Shown here piece after piece: positions 42,506-51,553 of a stretch of 51,553 bases of DNA. The stretch comes from Chloroflexota bacterium (GTDB lineage: Bacteria; Chloroflexota; UBA6077; FW602-bin22; JAMCVK01): contig JAMCVK010000043.1 of NCBI GenBank assembly GCA_023475225.1, positions 1 to 51,553 on the forward strand. The letters run 5' to 3'. The notes under the pieces are model-generated. The model made no database searches and was not told the origin of the DNA. It saw only the letters and a program-made list of their open reading frames with translations. Position 1 is the first letter of the stretch, and every line of letters begins with the position of its first letter. The translations under genes and the position numbers were made by a program.

Positions 42506-42916
42506 CTATTGGGCTGTCCTGTCTTTGCCTTGAGTACTGAGACAATCTTTGCAGGTTCCGTAGAACATAAGAACGTGTTCACCGACTTTATGCCCACTGA
42601 TCTGTTCAGCCTCCGCCTCCAGTTCACGGTGAGGGGGGAGGGGAACATCGTACACCCGTTCACAGGTAAGGCAGACGAAGTGATAGTGCAGCTTCACGTT
42701 AGCATCGTAGCGGCTCTCAGGGTGACGGGTATCAAGGCGCTGCACCTGTCCTTCTCTGCTGAGCAGCTCTAGATTACGATACACTGTTCCCAGGCTGATG
42801 CTGGGGATCTCCTGACGGACCTGTTCGTATACCCAGATGGCTGGAGGGTGCGTTGTAGTTCCCCTTAGCACTCTAAGTAGGCATTGTTTTTGTTTTGTGT
42901 TTCGATACCTTTTCAC
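42506..42916 (-). CDS. Fur-family regulator (PerR-like)
   Basis: 136 residues. Winged helix (residues about 8-80: NTKQKQCLLRVLRGTTTHPPAIWVYEQVRQEIPSISLGTVYRNLELLSREG) and the metal/dimer domain with HYHFVCLTCERVYDV and the second CxxC FYGTCKDCLS. Zinc-site cysteines are kept. His and Asp in RLDTRHPESRYDANVKLHYHF fit the sensing site of PerR/Fur. A Fur/Per-type box lies in its promoter and rubrerythrin follows, so peroxide sensing (PerR) is the better guess. GTG 42916 follows aagggga. Confidence 0.92.
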   Translation of the reverse strand: MKRYRNTKQKQCLLRVLRGTTTHPPAIWVYEQVRQEIPSISLGTVYRNLELLSREGQVQRLDTRHPESRYDANVKLHYHFVCLTCERVYDVPLPPHRELEAEAEQISGHKVGEHVLMFYGTCKDCLSTQGKDRTAQ

Positions 42917-42932
42917 TATTCGTCCCCTTATT

Positions 42933-42965
42933 AATAATGATAACAGATATTATTATTTTTGTCAA
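42933..42965 (-). promoter_or_regulatory. Promoter and Fur/PerR box of the regulator-rubrerythrin operon
   Basis: Minus strand -35 TTGACA (42965..42960), 17-base spacer, -10 TATCAT (42942..42937). An inverted repeat, aataatgata (42933..42942) against tattattatt (42948..42957), 9 of 10 paired, fills the spacer and -10 box. Its AT-rich form fits Fur/PerR boxes and suggests autoregulation. Confidence 0.78.
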
Positions 42966-43358: not shown

Positions 43359-44045
43359 CTAGGACCGAGACTCCAGTATGGGTGCGGTCAGGTAGCGAGC
43401 CAGTTGCCGAATCTTTTCTTCATCGCGCCTGGAGAGGAGCTGGCGAAAGTAGTCCCTCACCTTCCCGATCTCTTTTACTTGTTCCACCACGATATCCCCG
43501 GCAAGATGAGCGAGCACATTATGGTAAGCTCCCATAAAGAGAATGCCTACCTCCCCCTCCGTCAAGGTCTCATTGATGGTTTTAGCTGTGAACCTATCCC
43601 TCTCCTCCGTAAGGTGATCCTGGTGCATCCTTGATCGATAGTGGCTGGAAATCGTTTCCGCTGCCGTCTCACTGGTGCGTCTGGCCATATCTTCGTACTC
43701 CTGGACGAGAAGGGAGGTGTCCTCCGTCTTTCGTATCTCCGCTCCCTTTTTGATCAGATCGAGGATGATCTGATAATTTTCGCTGCTCCTTCTGGCTGCC
43801 TCCGCGATGATCCTCCGGCCCAGTTCTCCATCGGCGGCGAGTCCGTCTTGATAGATCTTAAGTCTGGCTACGTCAAGCGATAGGAGATACTCCGCCACGC
43901 TCTCCCAGAATCTGGCCATCGTTTCTTTGTGCTCTGCCCATCGTCTTTCGCCATAGAGAGCAGCGCTTCTCCTTTCAATGGTAGGGCCTAGACGTCCCAG
44001 ATCCGCTTCACTATGGATTATGGGGACATATAATAGTTTTCTCAC
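43359..44045 (-). CDS. Unknown protein at the end of the gas-vesicle/AAA operon
   Basis: 228 residues, soluble and mostly helical. It begins RKLLYVPIIHSEADLGRLGPTIERRSAAL and ends with GEVGILFMGAYHNVLAHLAGDIVVEQVKEIGKVRDYFRQLL. The central EGEVGILFMGAYHNV resembles a short motif in TraB/GumN-type or EreA-like folds, but I do not recognise the family. The ATG lies two bases after the AAA gene stop, so the two are translated together and may work together, for instance as an adaptor or substrate of the unfoldase. No catalytic signature is evident. Confidence 0.85.
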   Translation of the reverse strand: MRKLLYVPIIHSEADLGRLGPTIERRSAALYGERRWAEHKETMARFWESVAEYLLSLDVARLKIYQDGLAADGELGRRIIAEAARRSSENYQIILDLIKKGAEIRKTEDTSLLVQEYEDMARRTSETAAETISSHYRSRMHQDHLTEERDRFTAKTINETLTEGEVGILFMGAYHNVLAHLAGDIVVEQVKEIGKVRDYFRQLLSRRDEEKIRQLARYLTAPILESRS

Positions 44046-44047
44046 GG

Positions 44048-46192
44048 TTATTGCTCGCTGCTCTTAAGTGCCTCCATGAAGTGCTCGGCGGTTATTCTAA
44101 AAGTGGCCAGGTCTGCTGCTTCGGGTTTCGGACCGAGCCCATCGATAAACCCCCTGATCGCTAGCATGGATGCCCTCCTGCAGATAGCCTCTATATCGGA
44201 CCCTACCAGACCCTCGGTAGCACTGGCCAGTGCTCCAAGGTTGACATCGCTGGCCAGGGGTTTGCCCCTTGTATGAATCCTGAATATCTCCAGCCGGGCT
44301 TTGTCATCAGGGAGAGGCAGCTCAAGGCGCAGGTCAAATCTGCCGGCCCGCAGAAGGGCCGGATCGATAATGTCGGGCCTGTTGGTGGCAGCCAGGACCA
44401 CCACCCCTTTGAGCTCCTCTATCCCATCAAGCTCGGTGAGGAACTGACTGATCACCCGCTCGGTAACGTGGGAATCGGCACTGGTCCCTCGAACAGGGGC
44501 AATGGCATCTATCTCATCGAAGAAGATGATACAGGGGCTGGCCTGTCTGGCCTTCCTGAAGATCTCCCTAATGCCCCTCTCAGACTCGCCAACCCACTTG
44601 GAGAGCAGTGCCGGCCCTTTGACTGAGATGAAGTTCACCTGGCTCTGGCTGGCTACAGCCTTGGCCAGAAGGGTCTTGCCTGTGCCCGGCGGCCCGCTGA
44701 GTAGGATGCCCTTAGCCGGCCTGGTATGGGCCTGCTCAAATACCTCTGGATACTTGAGCGGCCACTCGATGGTCTCCATGAGCACCCTTTTGGCCTCCTC
44801 CAGACCGCCCACATCGCTCCAGCACACATCGGGGATCTCGGTGAAGACCTCCCTGATAGCTGAGGGCTCGATCTCCTTCAGCGCCTCGAGGAAATTGTCC
44901 ATGCGGACATCTAGCCCCGAGAGCAGTTCGTAGGGGATGTAATCTGCGTCCAGCTCGATCTTGGGCATTATCCTTCTCAAAACGGTCATCGCTGCCTCCC
45001 GGCATAGTGCCTCCAGGTCAGCGCCCACGAAGCCGTGAGTGATTTCAGCGAGCTTCTCTAAATTCACATCGGAGGCCAGGGGCATTCCCCTGGTATGGAT
45101 GTGCAGTATTTCCAGCCTTCCATTTTTATCTGGGATGCTTATGGAGATCTCGCGGTCAAATCTCCCCGGCCTCCTCAGGGCTGGATCGAGCACGTTCGGT
45201 ATATTGGTAGCCCCGATAATGATCACCTGCCCCCTTGATTTCAGGCCATCCATCAGGGCCAGGAGCTGGGCCACAACCCTGCGCTCCACCTGCTGATCTC
45301 CCCGGATCTCCTCCCTTTTAGAGGCTATAGCGTCGATCTCGTCCAGAAAGACTATGGCGGGGGCGTTCTCCTTGGCCTTCTCGAAGATAGCGCGCAGATG
45401 TGCTTCACTTTCCCCATAGAACTTGTGGATGACCTCAGGGCCGCTTATGTGGACAAAATAGGCATCAGTTTCGTTGGCTACCGCTCTGGCTATCAGCGTT
45501 TTCCCACACCCCGGCGGGCCATAGAGCAGCACCCCCTTGGGAGCCTCTATCCCCAACCTTTCGAAGAGCTCGGGATACTTCAAGGGAAGCTCGATCATCT
45601 CCCTTATCCTTTGAATCTCCCTCTGGAGCCCACCGATGTCCTCGTAGGTCACACCGGTTTTCTCCTTGCCAGCCGTAGCCTCACCTTTCACCTTTATGGT
45701 GGTGAGGGGACCGATTGCCACGGCGCCCTTTGGACTAGCGTCCGCGACTAAGAACTCCTGATAGTGGCTGCCCAGCAAGGTAGCCCTTACCTTGTCTTCT
45801 GGGGTCACAGGCAACCCCTCAAGAAGCCTTCCCAGGTATTTTCTGTCCTTCTCCCTTACAAAAGTGCTCGAGGAGGTCATGGGAGCGAGGATTACAGTGC
45901 TGGCACTTTCATACTCTATCTTACGGAGCTGTACTCTCTCCCCCAAACCAGTTTGCGCATTCTCGCGGGTGATGCCGTCTATCTGGACCGTGCCTTTGCC
46001 CCGATCCTGGGGGTAAGCCGGCATAACCCTGGCTACCGTAGGTCTCTTGCCGATGATTTGGATGATATCTCCCACCTCAACCCCCATCCTGGCCATATCC
46101 TGAGGGTCGAGCCTGGCCAGCGCTCGGCCTACATCCTTGGCCAGGGCCTCGGCTACCCTGAGAGTTAACGTTTCCCCCTTTACCTGCGCCAT
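44048..46192 (-). CDS. CDC48/p97-type double AAA ATPase
   Basis: About 714 residues. An N-terminal double-psi barrel/CDC48 domain (about 1-180: [30 protein letters not shown]) precedes two AAA modules: D1 with [17 protein letters not shown] and [15 protein letters not shown]2 with [17 protein letters not shown] and [13 protein letters not shown], both with second-region [17 protein letters not shown] arginine fingers. It should be a hexameric unfoldase/segregase. These are typical of archaea and found in some bacteria. ATG 46192 follows GAGGAGGGAAGGG; an earlier GTG at 46219 adds residues with no match. It is 29 bases after the HTH-Hsp20 gene. p97-like ATPases have been noted beside gas-vesicle genes. 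Confidence 0.95.
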
Positions 46193-46221: not shown

Positions 46222-46932
46222 TTATTTCTTTTTCCTGAGCTTTATCTCGAGGATTCCATTCTTGTAAGAGGAGACCATAGTGTCGGCATCGACTGGCGAG
46301 GGGAGTAAGACCTCCTTGCTGTATTTCCGGTCCTTTCCCTCAGCTGTGAGGGCCAGGATATCCTCCTTGACCTCCACATGAATGTCATTGGCCTCCACGC
46401 CAGGAAGTTCGGCGATTATCACTAAGTGATCGCCTTCGTCAAGCACGTCAACCAGTGGTTCGCGGACCTCCGCCACCACTGGGCCCTCCTCCGTTGCCCG
46501 GATGTTGCCAAACTGCTCAATGATCGGCTTTCCGCCCAGACCTATCTTTACACTGAAGCCATATACACCCTTAACCTTGTCGCCTGGACCTCTAATCTCC
46601 CCGGAGCGGGTGTATTCTTCCTTACCCTCCTCAGCCATCTTGGAGACCAGGTCAAAGAGGCCGCCGAGCCCCTTGAACAGGCCGCCAACGCTGAACTCAA
46701 TTCCCTCTCCAGGTTCCTTTCTTTTTGCGCTCATTGGAATGCCTCCCCTCTTGCGTTGGTCTTTTATTTGGTTTTGCAGTTCCTCTATCCTGAGACTTAT
46801 AATGGGCAGTGGCCTGGTGAGACCCCCTTCCCAGCGCCTTACCGTCTGTAGCGAGACGCCGAGCAGGCGGGCAAACCTCTCCTGAGATAGCCCAAGCTCC
46901 AGGCGGAATTTCTTGATCCTTTCTTCTTCCAT
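46222..46932 (-). CDS. HTH-Hsp20 fusion protein (GvpH-like small heat-shock domain)
   Basis: 236 residues in one frame. Residues about 1-50 are an XRE-type HTH ([31 protein letters not shown]). A short charged linker leads to residue 67, where MSAKRKEPG starts a segment typical of archaeal/bacterial GvpH proteins ([46 protein letters not shown]) and then an alpha-crystallin (Hsp20) domain ([28 protein letters not shown]). An inner ATG at 46734 has a strong GGGGAGG seven bases upstream, so a free GvpH-like protein could also be made. ATG 46932 is preferred over GTG 46938 for spacing. It is first in the operon with the AAA gene. Confidence 0.9.
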
Positions 46933-46959
46933 AGACACTCACCCTCCCCATGCGCCCAT

Positions 46960-46988
46960 ATTATAACATATGTTTAATCAAATGTCAA
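46960..46988 (-). promoter_or_regulatory. Perfect-consensus promoter with internal palindrome, HTH-Hsp20/AAA operon
   Basis: Minus strand -35 TTGACA (46988..46983), 17-base spacer, -10 TATAAT (46965..46960): a perfect match to consensus. The palindrome AACATATGTT at 46965..46974 touches the -10 box and fills part of the spacer; it could bind the HTH protein encoded just downstream. Confidence 0.85.
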
Positions 46989-47046
46989 TACTCTTGACCT
47001 AAAACTGTCGAACAACGGGGATTTGGGGCCCATATCTATGGATCTC

Positions 47047-47412
47047 TCAAGAGAGGATGTCATGCACCCTGTTGAGCAGGGCGGTAGGACTGAAAGGCTT
47101 GCTGAAGTAGTCATCAGCGCCTGCCTGTTCGGCCAATTCCTTATCGGCGGCGCTGCTCTTGACTGTAAGCATCACAATCTTTATCTTCGAGGTGAGCGGA
47201 TCACTCTTGAGGATGTGACAAACGGCATAGCCATCAACCTTAGGCATCATTATGTCCAACAGGATAAGGTCGGGTTGTTCCAGGTGGGCCAGCAGGATGG
47301 TCTCCTCGCCATTGACTGCATGGGTGATCTCGAATTCTTCTCCAGCCAGCGTGGCCTCGACCAAGCGGCGCAGGTATTCGTCGTCATCGGCGATAAGGAT
47401 TTTTCGTTTCAT
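47047..47412 (-). CDS. Stand-alone response-regulator receiver
   Basis: 121 residues, a CheY-like single receiver: KILIADDDEYLRRLVEATL, phospho-Asp in LILLDIMMPKVDGYAVC, Thr in MLTVKS and Lys in DYFSKPFSP. There is no output domain and no kinase in the cluster. The start at 47412 is chosen because residues before it are unlike receivers and come from the repeat-rich spacer. It could deliver a signal by protein contact to the gas-vesicle or unfoldase machinery. Confidence 0.93.
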   Translation of the reverse strand: MKRKILIADDDEYLRRLVEATLAGEEFEITHAVNGEETILLAHLEQPDLILLDIMMPKVDGYAVCHILKSDPLTSKIKIVMLTVKSSAADKELAEQAGADDYFSKPFSPTALLNRVHDILS

Positions 47413-47674
47413 GTTGGTTGATACCCTCATCCCCCTGCCCCCTTCTGGACTACCCCCCGTCCGCCGAACGCAGACTCTGCACGCCCCCATCTGCGAGAAA
47501 TGGTGGATATAGGCTGGGTCGAAGACTCTTCGAGGTGGGGCCTTCAGGACTTCTAAGGAGGGGGGGGTTCTCCCTTGACCTCCTTTCCCTCCTGTTGTAG
47601 GGAAAGACGCCCTCATCCCCCTTATCCCCCTTATCCCCCTTATCCCCTTCTCCTTTCAGGAGAAGGGGATGTGA
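47413..47674. repeat. C-rich repeats and hairpin between receiver and Hsp70 genes
   Basis: The gap holds the dispersed ccctcatccccctgcccc lead (near 47425), a gactc-ttc-gag hairpin like that near 41.92 kb, a three-copy period-10 run of ccttatcccc (about 47619..47649), and a perfect 13-bp stem atccccttctcct / aggagaaggggat (47642..47670) just past the Hsp70 stop. This hairpin lacks a U-run and may partly insulate the two operon parts. Confidence 0.7.
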
Positions 47675-49189
47675 CTATAGGTTGTGCCCTCCCTTCTGAA
47701 CCTCTCCGCTGCTGGCTTCTGCCTCATTGATCATGCGCCGTATGTCCTCAGAGCGAAGCCCTTTTGAGGAGACAACTCTCACACTTTCGGTTTTTTCGGT
47801 TAATAGATCGGTGGCGGATACGTGGAGGATGCCATCAACATCAACATCAAAGGTGACCTCAATCTTGGGCACTCCCCTCAATAGTGGGGGAATGCCCTCT
47901 AGCTGAAAGCGGCCCAGCGATATGTTGTTGACGGCGAGTTCTCGCTCCCCTTGCAGTATATGAATATCTACCGAGGTCTGATTATCGGCTGCGGTGGTGA
48001 AGATCCGCGCCGCGGAGGCTGGTAGCGGGGTGTTTCTACGGATTATCCTGGTGAAGAGGCCGCCCTGAGTTTCGATGCCCAGCGAGAGAGGAAGTACGTC
48101 GAGAACAACCGCTTTCTCGATTAAGCCAAGCAGCATCCCGGCCTGAATGGCCGCACCCAGAGCCACGACCTCATCGGGATTGATGCTCTGGTAGGGCTCC
48201 TTCCCCAGGAGTTGCCTGGCTAGTTCTCGGACCGCTGGCATCCTGGTGGCTCCTCCCACCAGGATCACTCGGTCAATATCTCGAGGCTCCAGCCCCGCAT
48301 CGGCCAGAGCCTGGCGGGTGGGAGGGACCATCCTCTCCAGCAGGTCTCGAGTCAGCTCCTGGAACCTCTCTCTGGTCAAGGCTGCCCTCAAGTGCGTCGG
48401 GGCAACCGACTCCCCGCCGCTAAACGGCAAGTAAATGGAGGTTGACGACGCTGTGGAAAGGTCTATTTTGGCCCTCTCGGCGACCTCCCTCAGCCTTTGC
48501 CAGTCCATTCCATCCCCGGGGAAGTCGACCCCGTAGTCCTTTCTGTAGCACTTTGCCAGGTAGTCCATCAGGCGCCGATCATAGTCATCCCCACCCAGCC
48601 AGGTATCGCCGCTGACGGCTCTTACCTCAAAGATGCCCTGCTCCAGTTCGAGGATAGAGACATCGAAGGTGCCACCACCCAGGTCCCAAACCAGAACGGT
48701 ATGGATATCTTCGCGGTCAAGAGCGTAGGCCAGGGCAGCGGCGGTGGGCTCGTTGCTGATCCGAATGACCTCCAGGCCGGCCAAAAGGCCCGCCTCCTTG
48801 GTCGCCTGGCGCTGGGGGTCGCTGAAATAGGCGGGCACGGTGATCACGGCTTTCTCCACCTTCTCGCCCAGGCGTTCTTCTATATCCGTCTTGACCTTCC
48901 GCAGGATTAAGCTGGAGATCTGCTGAGGTGTGTATTTCCTTTCACCGATCCCTACCTTATAATCGGAGCCCATACGCCTTTTGATCGAAAAGACTGTCCT
49001 CTCGGGGTTAGCCGCCGCCTGCCTCCTGGCCAGTTGCCCCACCAGAGGTTTCCCATCCCTGCAGAAAGCGACAGCCGAGGGCGTCAGCCGCTGACCCTCG
49101 GCGTTGGGGATGATCTTGGGCCGGCCATCTTCGATAACGGCCGCGACGGTGTAGGTTGTCCCCAGGTCGATGCCAACTGCTCTGGTCAT
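47675..49189 (-). CDS. Lid-less Hsp70 (DnaK-like) in the gas-vesicle cluster
   Basis: 504 residues from ATG 49189, whose A-T-G overlaps the upstream GvpJ/M stop (ATGA). The N-terminal ATPase is complete: AVGIDLGTTYTVAAV, VITVPAYFSDPQRQATKEAG, VLVWDLGGGTFDVSILEL, VILVGGATRMPAVRELARQ. The substrate-binding beta domain is there (SLGIETQGGLFTRIIRRNTPLP, GIPPLLRGVPKIEVTFDVDVDGILHVSA), but the chain ends soon after EDIRRMINEAEA, so the helical lid of normal DnaK (about 100-130 residues) is missing. An Hsp70 with no lid releases clients fast and may be specialised. No DnaJ or GrpE is near. A longer upstream start at 49303 lies in the other gene. Confidence 0.94.
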   Translation of the reverse strand: MTRAVGIDLGTTYTVAAVIEDGRPKIIPNAEGQRLTPSAVAFCRDGKPLVGQLARRQAAANPERTVFSIKRRMGSDYKVGIGERKYTPQQISSLILRKVKTDIEERLGEKVEKAVITVPAYFSDPQRQATKEAGLLAGLEVIRISNEPTAAALAYALDREDIHTVLVWDLGGGTFDVSILELEQGIFEVRAVSGDTWLGGDDYDRRLMDYLAKCYRKDYGVDFPGDGMDWQRLREVAERAKIDLSTASSTSIYLPFSGGESVAPTHLRAALTRERFQELTRDLLERMVPPTRQALADAGLEPRDIDRVILVGGATRMPAVRELARQLLGKEPYQSINPDEVVALGAAIQAGMLLGLIEKAVVLDVLPLSLGIETQGGLFTRIIRRNTPLPASAARIFTTAADNQTSVDIHILQGERELAVNNISLGRFQLEGIPPLLRGVPKIEVTFDVDVDGILHVSATDLLTEKTESVRVVSSKGLRSEDIRRMINEAEASSGEVQKGGHNL

Positions 49190-49485
49190 CTCTCCCGACC
49201 TGGTATTCCCTGCCTCTCCAGGATGATATCTTCGCCCGACAACGCGGCGACCTCTTTCTTCTCTCTGTGCTTGCTCTCCCAGGCCCGCGTGCGCTCGTCC
49301 CACTCCTTCATCAGCCCATACTCGAGCATGGTCTCCATCCCAGCCAGGGCAGCCCGCAGGTTCACGCCGATAAGGGGAACGCCAGCAACGGAGATGATGA
49401 GGTCGGCATGGATTATCAGCCCCTTATCCAGCACCCTGTCCAACAGGTCCACCAGGGTAGCGTGCGAGTTGCGGATTGGCTCCAT
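49186..49485 (-). CDS. Gas-vesicle protein, GvpA/J/M family
   Basis: 99 residues. The conserved core STLVDLL-type helix and DKGLIIHADLIISVAGVPLIGVNLRAALAGMETMLEYG matches the GvpA/J/M group of wall or accessory proteins; ATLVDLLDRVLDKG and VAGVPLIGVNLRAALAG favour the J/M (minor) branch. The tail (WDERTRAWESKHREKKEV) is charged, unlike the short tail of major GvpA. It lies 11 bases after the GvpF/L gene. The major GvpA, if any, must be upstream of the window. Confidence 0.93.
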   Translation of the reverse strand: MEPIRNSHATLVDLLDRVLDKGLIIHADLIISVAGVPLIGVNLRAALAGMETMLEYGLMKEWDERTRAWESKHREKKEVAALSGEDIILERQGIPGRER

Positions 49486-49496
49486 AGCTACCTGTA

Positions 49497-50312
49497 TCAG
49501 GCACCTCCTACAAAGCTATAGGGAGGCCAGGGTCCCGTAAAACGCACCGAAAAGCCCTCCAGCTGATTGATCTTGTCCAGCTCCCCCCCCAGCCCTGTGT
49601 ACTTGTCTCTACGGACCAGACAGGAGAGGTTCATGATCATCTGCAAGTCCTGCTCTGCTCCCTTCGTCTTTTCCACACGAATATCGTCAGCATGCTTCCT
49701 GATGCGGCTGTAAAAATCCCTGAAGCACTCGTCTGCTTTGGTCTCCATCTCGCGCTTGATGATGTTCTCCAGCCTCTGCCGGTACATGTAGGCCAGGCCC
49801 TTGGACTTAGTTTCGATTTCCTGTTCCAGTTTTTTTATTTCCGGGCTTGTTTGGGTCAGTTTTTGGGCAATGACCTTGGGGTCCCACAGGACCTGCACCC
49901 CATACTCGGCCCTGTCTCTCACCCTCTCGATTTTCCTTTTGAGCCCTTTATACTCCTGCTCGAGCCAATCCTGCACCTTTCGCTCGGTGGCGTCCCCTTT
50001 AATTATGGTGTCGAAGGTCAACGGAAGCACTGTGCCCCACCTTTGCCAGGCGGCATCAACCACCTTTTGATGTGTCATTACCCATGCCGTCACCACTTCC
50101 TGGTCGTCTGATTGGTACGGCTCTGCCGGGCAATTGTGCACCACGGCGCAGATGTCTTTAGAGGGGATGGTATAGACCACGTTTCCCTCTAGGCCGATTG
50201 CCCCCAGGTTCACCCTTTCCCCGGCGTCGGCAACACAATAGAGGTATCTTCCCTCTCCCGCTACGATGGCCTCGGTGGCTGGCGCAGCCTTGGTCTGGTC
50301 ACGGTATTGCAT
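49497..50312 (-). CDS. gvpL: Gas-vesicle protein GvpL/GvpF
   Basis: 271 residues. GvpF/L fold: GRYLYCVADAGERVNLGAIGLEGN, YTIPSKDICAVVHNCP, MTHQKVVDAAWQRWGTVLPLTFDTIIKGD, a long coiled-coil (about 130-200), and the closing FTGPWPPYSF, the hallmark of the family. GvpF/L are vesicle-assembly accessory proteins; one binds GvpA early in assembly. It overlaps GvpK by 14 bases. Confidence 0.95.
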   Translation of the reverse strand: MQYRDQTKAAPATEAIVAGEGRYLYCVADAGERVNLGAIGLEGNVVYTIPSKDICAVVHNCPAEPYQSDDQEVVTAWVMTHQKVVDAAWQRWGTVLPLTFDTIIKGDATERKVQDWLEQEYKGLKRKIERVRDRAEYGVQVLWDPKVIAQKLTQTSPEIKKLEQEIETKSKGLAYMYRQRLENIIKREMETKADECFRDFYSRIRKHADDIRVEKTKGAEQDLQMIMNLSCLVRRDKYTGLGGELDKINQLEGFSVRFTGPWPPYSFVGGA

Positions 50313-50637
50313 CTCTAAGTCCTCTGCTCGATTTCCTCTCTCCCCATCTTTCGGGGTTCAGCATCCTGTCCAGGACATCGTCCACGATTTCATCGAGTCC
50401 ATCCCTTACCGCTTTCACGGACTCAGCGAGCCCCTGCTCCTTCTTTATCTCCTCGATGGCAGTGTCAAGGTCCATGAGCGCCTGCCCCAGCCTTTCCATC
50501 TCCTCCTCAGTCAATCTCCCGCCCTCCATGCGCTTCATGGCCTGAAGATTGAGGGCATCCCTTATTATCTCTACAAGGGCGATTACCAGCCCGAGCACGC
50601 CGTGTTTCAGGCTCTTCTCATCGATAGCGACTACCAT
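50299..50637 (-). CDS. gvpK: Gas-vesicle protein GvpK
   Basis: 112 residues, the full GvpK pattern: DEKSLKHGVLGLVIALVEIIRDALNLQAMKRMEGGRLTEEEMERLGQALMDLDTAIEEIKKEQG. An accessory needed for vesicle formation. It stands between the Hsp20 and GvpF/L genes with short or overlapping junctions, clearly one operon. Confidence 0.95.
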   Translation of the reverse strand: MVVAIDEKSLKHGVLGLVIALVEIIRDALNLQAMKRMEGGRLTEEEMERLGQALMDLDTAIEEIKKEQGLAESVKAVRDGLDEIVDDVLDRMLNPERWGERKSSRGLRDAIP

Positions 50638-50654
50638 AGTTCTGAGCTGTCTCT

Positions 50655-51209
50655 CTAGGATGTTCTCTGCAAGTGGACTTCCAGGATGCCGTTTCGGCAG
50701 GTCGCTTTCAAACTGTCCGCCTCGACCTGGGAGCCCAGCCTGATCTCCTTCCGATAGCTGTGGCGGGCGGCCGGTTTCGTGGACAGGGAAAGAACGTCAC
50801 CCTCGACCTTGAGCTCCAGCTCGGCCAGCTCCACGCCCGGAACCTCAACTACGATTACGATCCCCTGATCCTCGTAGAAAATGTCTACCGCTGGCTCAAC
50901 GACTTCGGACGGCTCCGCTACTTTCCCGCGGCCTCTTCGTCTGGTTGGCGAGCTGGTTTCTATATGGTATTCCCTTTCTCCCAGGCTGCTGTGTGTCCTG
51001 ATATGCCTACCGATGCTCGTCTGTCCCCTTCGCCACTCCTCATCGCTGAGCACCTCCCTCCCCCCAGCCTGCTTCAGCTTTTCCCTGAGTTCTGCAAGCC
51101 GACCCCTTACCTCCTCTGGGGAAGAAAGGAGTTTCCCCAGGTCTATCTTGAGACCGGAGAGGTCGAGGGTGCCGCCGATGATCTCAGACTCCTTATTACC
51201 TTTCTGCAT
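50655..51209 (-). CDS. Small heat-shock protein (Hsp20), gas-vesicle associated
   Basis: 184 residues. An N-terminal charged region (about 1-105) with LSGLKIDLGKLLSSPEEVRGRLAELREKLKQAG precedes an alpha-crystallin domain (about 108-182, PAVDIFYEDQGIVIVVEVPGV, NGILEVHL). It resembles GvpH-type proteins. ATG 51209 follows aggggat. It is the second Hsp20 of the cluster; the other is fused to an HTH. It may keep hydrophobic GvpA-like proteins soluble during assembly. Confidence 0.92.
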   Translation of the reverse strand: MQKGNKESEIIGGTLDLSGLKIDLGKLLSSPEEVRGRLAELREKLKQAGGREVLSDEEWRRGQTSIGRHIRTHSSLGEREYHIETSSPTRRRGRGKVAEPSEVVEPAVDIFYEDQGIVIVVEVPGVELAELELKVEGDVLSLSTKPAARHSYRKEIRLGSQVEADSLKATCRNGILEVHLQRTS

Positions 51210-51217
51210 AGTATCCC

Positions 51218-51553
51218 CTAGCTAGCTTCTAACTGAGGAATCTCCTCCCGCTGGTGACCATTGTCAGAGGGAACGGCCCTGCCCCGCTTTGCCCTGGCGC
51301 TTAGCCAGCCGCACCAGGGGCAGCCTTCCCCCATTAGTTCTTCGACAGGTGCTCGTTTGCCGCACTGGGGGCAAGTCTCCTTGCCAACCAGCGCCTCCCG
51401 CCAGGCAGGCGTCTCCATCCGGGTGCCTGAGGGAAATTCGAGGCCATACCTGGCCGCTGTTTCGAATGAGGCCAGGGATGCCCTTATCTTGATGCCCAAA
51501 AGCTCGACGCCAGCCACGGAGACGGCGATATCGGCATTGATCACCAAGCCCTT
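51218..51553 (-). CDS. GvpA/J-family protein with C-terminal zinc ribbon (partial)
   Basis: The frame runs off the right edge of the window; 111 codons are seen. The GvpA/J core KGLVINADIAVSVAGVELLGIKIRASLASFETAARYGLEFPSG is followed by a linker and CPQCGKRAPVEELMGEGCPWCGW, a two-CxxC zinc-ribbon pair, then a basic tail. I know no such ribbon on ordinary gas-vesicle wall proteins. It may tether or sense metal/redox state. The true start is outside the window. Confidence 0.9.
   Translation of the reverse strand, partial: KGLVINADIAVSVAGVELLGIKIRASLASFETAARYGLEFPSGTRMETPAWREALVGKETCPQCGKRAPVEELMGEGCPWCGWLSARAKRGRAVPSDNGHQREEIPQLEAS

Follow-up and report, generated by a model that had tools for sequence, protein, structure and literature searches.

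A GvpH-like small heat-shock protein fused to an XRE-type domain, with a putative operator array over its own promoter, in bacterial gas-vesicle clusters

Why should a gas-vesicle chaperone carry a DNA-binding domain, and does such a protein act on its own gene? The question is raised by a contig of 51,553 nt from a Chloroflexota bacterium (JAMCVK010000043.1; the whole of it is referred to below as the window), in which a gene of a gas-vesicle (gvp) cluster encodes a helix-turn-helix (HTH) domain followed by a small heat-shock protein. Comparison with related loci established the fusion, its promoter, an operator array that occurs only together with the HTH, an inner start and the gene order. 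On these sequence grounds the gene probably specifies an autorepressor combined with a chaperone, plus a second product that is free chaperone, and we infer DNA binding and the two products with considerable confidence.

One reading frame joins an XRE-type domain to a GvpH-like chaperone

The frame (46222..46932, −) encodes 236 aa from an ATG at 46932 to a stop at 46222; an in-frame GTG at 46938 would add the residues MS before this ATG. Residues 6–51 (46780..46917, −) form a predicted XRE/HTH_3 DNA-binding domain (Pfam E = 6.1e-10; 39.4 bits against a curated cut-off of 23), which is matched by 13/13 fused relatives and itself matches MBF1, PezA and HigA2. It is followed by a variable linker (residues 52–66; 46735..46779, −), in which relatives keep little except a Gly-Gly pair whose codons supply a Shine-Dalgarno (SD) sequence. 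The remainder (46222..46734, −; 170 aa as a free product) is a GvpH-like small heat-shock domain, with the GvpH/HSP20 match spanning residues 84–236. Both HSP20 (E = 9e-9; 35.8 bits, gathering score 20.8) and PF05455, the GvpH family (E = 9e-7; 29.6 bits, gathering score 22), exceed the Pfam gathering scores, confirming the original prediction that a single frame joins an XRE-type HTH to GvpH/Hsp20. PF05455 is matched by only six of the 13 relatives (E 0.001), HSP20 by all 13.

The chaperone half also scores 164–165 bits against the NCBIfam model of archaeal Hsp20 (NF041800; curated cut-off 140), from which the window protein differs in being bacterial, HTH-fused and part of a gvp cluster, and for its alpha-crystallin part there are matches among solved Hsp20 structures (4rzk, E 5e-24). 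An AF2 model of modest confidence (pLDDT 65) shows an HTH with helices at residues 5–13, 17–24, 28–35 and 43–61, a low-confidence linker and an alpha-crystallin domain, with pLDDT low from residue 63.

The same in-frame fusion was found in 13 distinct genomes (12 Chloroflexota and one Nitrospirota, L005), gathered from species genomes first and whole-genome sets second; the fused genes share kinship, so that this count does not represent 13 independent events. The intact set comprises the window and loci L003, L004, L005, L006, L007, L061, L062 and L095–L099, and the relatives' fusions are 56–80% identical to that of the window. Of the 393 genomes in G178's class of Chloroflexota (presumably Dehalococcoidia), 18 have a strong GvpH match and 11 of these 18 carry the fusion; in the window's own class it was seen in the window's genome only. 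Free GvpH occurs elsewhere in Chloroflexota, Nitrospirota and other groups, and its starting methionine corresponds to an inner methionine of the fusion. A separate HTH gene of the fusion's type was looked for beside the unfused GvpH genes, and none was found. In three loci of large-genome Chloroflexota (L064, L066, L068) the free GvpH is extended at its N terminus by a sequence, MKRPKGMSDIKK..., that bears no relation to the HTH.

Nucleotide changes in the HTH among fused genes fall mostly at codon position 3 (0.59, vs 0.30 and 0.18 at positions 1 and 2); the chaperone domain has a similar pattern, and the linker is relaxed. Judged by the sequences, the HTH is under purifying selection, as is the chaperone domain. 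That an artefact of sequencing or assembly had joined two ordinary genes, an objection raised with the original prediction, has a precedent of sorts in one frameshifted second copy, but is excluded for all practical purposes because 13 genomes of two phyla share the same in-frame junction, and the changes in the HTH follow a coding pattern. This second HTH-GvpH copy, in genome G419 (L107, 1170–1970), is frameshifted soon after the inner start and has a degenerate operator.

The history of the Nitrospirota locus is mixed. In the GvpH tree L005 groups with free GvpH of Nitrospirota, and a single clade of all fused genes is rejected (AU p 0.003), whereas the CDC48 tree places it inside the fused clade (100/100). 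As the two trees disagree, the HTH and operator appear to have been joined, as a cassette, to a second GvpH body. The region 7900–10900 of L005 looks chimeric: its GvpH body is of Nitrospirota type, and its CDC48 gene and HTH/operator are of the type seen in the fused loci of Chloroflexota. Locus L100 belongs to the fused clade but its GvpH is not fused; it has neither HTH nor operator.

Promoter and putative operator boxes

Just ahead of the gene are the −35 element TTGACA (46983..46988, −) and the −10 element TATAAT (46960..46965, −), the latter preceded by an extended −10 TG. The perfect promoter that had been described there was confirmed: TTGACATTTGATTAAACATATGTTATAAT (46988..46960, −) matches at 12/12 positions with a 17 bp spacer, and is the sole exact match within the window (0 in 100 shuffles). 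All 13 fused loci have TATTGACA-N17-TATAAT or a sequence close to it, and in each a pair of CANNTG boxes with a 12 bp step overlaps this promoter; hardly any conservation extends beyond the −35 to −10 interval when the loci are aligned.

In the window, putative box 2 (CATTTG, consensus CATATG; 46979..46984, −) overlaps the −35, and box 3 (CATATG; 46967..46972, −) lies directly before the −10. A further 12 bp step upstream is a degenerate box 1 (CAAGAG; 46991..46996, −), which is weak here. Box 3 is the core of the palindrome AACATATGTT (46965–46974), which had been predicted to lie at the −10. The palindrome is indeed exact, but it is one box of a 12-bp-stepped CANNTG array, and overlaps the end of the spacer and the first T of the −10. 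Taken alone it is compatible with chance, having two matches in the window at ≤1 mismatch, a number equalled by 17/100 shuffles; its significance comes from conservation among the fused loci, on which a chance match was rejected.

When the 13 intact fused genes are aligned on the −35, each has CANNTG-N6-CANNTG or a version with no more than one mismatch per box, the first sharing its CA with TTGACA and the second ending just before the −10. The mean CANNTG match of boxes 2 and 3 is 3.77 of 4 each, vs 1.0 (maximum 1.6) at control offsets upstream. The third position, exactly 12 bp upstream, has a mean score of 2.6 across the 13 loci; it is a full CANNTG in L006 (three CATATG), L062 and L095, and weak in the window and about half of the loci. 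The TG of the right box doubles as the extended −10, and TTGACA includes the CA of the middle one, so that the independent operator signal consists of the right-box CA, the middle-box TG, the spacing and the third box.

A 25 bp consensus of the region finds a site in 13/14 fused loci, the exception being the frameshifted copy, and in 0/44 unfused GvpH loci; the array is thus present only alongside the HTH. Eight genomes were scanned with a strict pattern, and in six of them it gave one match each, at the fusion's own promoter. The other two (G199 and G400) have no site at the mismatch limit of the pattern, because their operators diverge more. In the window's genome the promoter site is the sole one at one mismatch. 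The boxes change jointly in places, with CATATG pairs, CACGTG in L096 and inverted CAGGTG/CACCTG in L098, and the recognition-helix residues of these last two genes also differ (SWQS and SAQT, vs SLQT). Covariation of HTH residues and boxes is suggested by these cases.

Inner start and gene neighbourhood

The linker contains an SD sequence, GGGGAGG (46742..46748, −), 7 nt upstream of an ATG (Met67; 46732..46734, −) that corresponds to the initiation codon of GvpH proteins lacking the fusion. Both are kept in 13/13 fused genes, even where the encoded residues change (SGDTAM in L096, KGEQM in L098). The mean pairing energy of the inner SD is −10.9 kcal/mol, vs −8.0 for synonymous recodings sampled from each gene's own codons, and 0/500 simulations were as strong. 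An inner ATG giving free chaperone, as originally predicted, is supported by this conservation, by an SD stronger than synonymous choice would provide, and by its position where free GvpH begins.

At the HTH starts the mean SD energy is −5.4 kcal/mol. Little or no SD precedes the HTH start in L004, L005, L061, L095, L096 and L097, and in four loci (L004, L005, L095, L096) the HTH ATG is only 7–10 nt past the −10, so the mRNA would be leaderless or nearly so. The window has a strong SD at both the HTH start and the inner start. The thermosensor that had been proposed finds nothing in its favour: the predicted unpaired fraction of the inner SD is about the same at 20, 37 and 55 °C (0.63 to 0.69 from 20 to 55 °C), and with so little change an RNA thermometer at this start was set aside as improbable.

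About 30 nt downstream of the fusion, on the same strand and presumably in one operon with it, begins a CDC48-type AAA ATPase gene (44048..46192, −; TIGR01243, 985 bits), which also directly follows HTH-GvpH in 12/12 other fused loci. Next is a gene for a 228 aa protein (43359..44045, −) to which neither Pfam nor NCBIfam gave a match; it is conserved in L003–L006, L008 and L010 and in the gvp clusters of several phyla. Upstream is a gvp block (47675..51547, −) that includes GvpA-type, second Hsp20, GvpK, GvpF/L, GvpM-like and DnaK-like genes, the GvpM-like gene (49186–49485) scoring just under its model's cut-off. The fusion also occurs in other gvp clusters, with GvpA/M-type, GvpK and GvpF/L genes upstream in several relatives as in the window; where a fused locus reaches far enough, gvp genes are upstream and often a DnaK-like gene. 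The DnaK-like gene of the window (47675–49303) encodes 542 aa, and one is also upstream of the fusion in L003, L005, L006 and L061. Immediately upstream of the window's fusion is a receiver-only response regulator gene (47047–47616), a place taken by an extra Hsp20 gene in L003 and L005.

Proposed control of the operon

The boxes lie over the −35 and −10 of a consensus promoter, are found only with the HTH, and occur at most once per genome, which argues for autorepression of HTH-gvpH-CDC48. The self-control originally suggested therefore has comparative support (boxes over the promoter in 13/13 intact fused loci and 0/44 unfused, with no more than one site per genome in the eight scanned). 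In the proposed scheme, the XRE domain would bind the 12-bp-stepped CANNTG boxes. These extend over the −35 and onto the upstream edge of the −10 in the gene's own sigma-70 promoter, a very strong one, so that the bound HTH would limit transcription of the operon of HTH-gvpH, CDC48 and the conserved protein. The same mRNA, through the inner SD/ATG, would also give GvpH without the HTH, and in several relatives this free form would come from a stronger start than the full-length form. We infer that this HTH binds the boxes and acts as a repressor, and that the cell makes both forms.

More speculative, and with rather less than an even chance, is a release of the DNA by client load. Since the small heat-shock domain is common to both forms, one would expect mixed assemblies of full-length and free GvpH, and competition between the two for clients, namely unassembled hydrophobic Gvp subunits; client load or free chaperone might then draw the HTH form off the array, and repression would fall. 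Chaperone activity on Gvp subunits is known for haloarchaeal GvpH only, which prevents the aggregation of GvpM and pulls it down as a monomer (PMC7688916); as the window also has a GvpM-like gene, shell proteins that occupy the chaperone domain could reduce binding to the operator. The whole could tentatively be read as a proteostasis switch in one polypeptide, in which a gas-vesicle small heat-shock protein with its own operator-binding domain senses unassembled shell proteins and the two starts fix how much regulator is made relative to free chaperone; this too is somewhat doubtful.

The leading alternative, whose chance approaches but does not reach even, is that product feedback merely holds operon output constant, the GvpH part serving only for oligomerisation and clients having no effect. 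Operator, autoregulation and fusion need no ligand, and boxes stepped by 12 bp suit any oligomeric repressor; what it leaves unexplained is the fusion to a chaperone instead of a separate small repressor, and the retention of a separate start for free chaperone. An HTH that tethers GvpH at other gvp promoters, or represses there, as a cluster-wide regulator, would agree with the location of the fusion within gvp clusters, but is unlikely: in the eight genomes scanned the operator was never seen more than once, and then at the fusion's promoter, and with no second site in the 16 kb loci or in the window's own genome a wider regulon was rejected (the search in the window reaches into the upstream gvp block as far as the contig extends, short of the first gvp promoter). 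Activation at this promoter is less likely still, since, even if sequence does not give the direction of control, a protein bound to boxes over the −35 and the edge of the −10 would keep RNA polymerase out, and a consensus −35 with an extended −10 needs no activator.

Autorepression by the fusion has partial parallels. Feedback by repressors on chaperone genes is textbook knowledge, and in the known cases, HspR-DnaK and HrcA-GroE, repressor and chaperone are separate proteins; here XRE and Hsp20 domains, of unrelated families, form one polypeptide. HspR is MerR-like and HrcA has a winged helix. For the window protein HTH_3 is the best match and MerR reaches only E = 0.002 (18.2 bits, cut-off 28.2), so that membership of HspR/MerR was rejected. 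A HAIR operator was likewise rejected, as the conserved operator is CANNTG-N6-CANNTG, from which the HAIR sequence differs; the operators of the known systems are HAIR or CIRCE, and those here CANNTG arrays. The likeness lies in the titration logic, in which a repressor of chaperone genes binds its operator to an extent that depends on how occupied the chaperone is (PMC6032397); for the window protein client coupling is only proposed. XRE antitoxin repressors (HigA2, PezA, MqsA) are of the same HTH family by sequence and show compact autoregulation at an overlapping promoter, but no toxin gene is present here, the partner domain being a chaperone and the next gene CDC48. Haloarchaeal GvpH (PF05455; p-vac gvpH) is similarly a small-heat-shock-type accessory protein of a gvp cluster, but is a 19.8 kDa protein without a DNA-binding domain, gvp control being exerted via GvpD/GvpE (PMC7688916, PMC4390858), whereas the window protein has an XRE domain fused in front.

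A literature search for HTH-Hsp20 fusions found nothing relevant, and searchable papers held no published description of the system. A natural fusion with operator and second start, kept in 13 genomes, is a compact and testable candidate for a client-load sensor; it names a regulator for gas-vesicle clusters in Chloroflexota that have received little study, and those who engineer gas vesicles would have a use for it as a part. Elsewhere in the window, a near-consensus promoter (11/12; 42937–42965, −) lies 20 nt upstream of a gene (42506–42916) that is Fur-like by its sequence.
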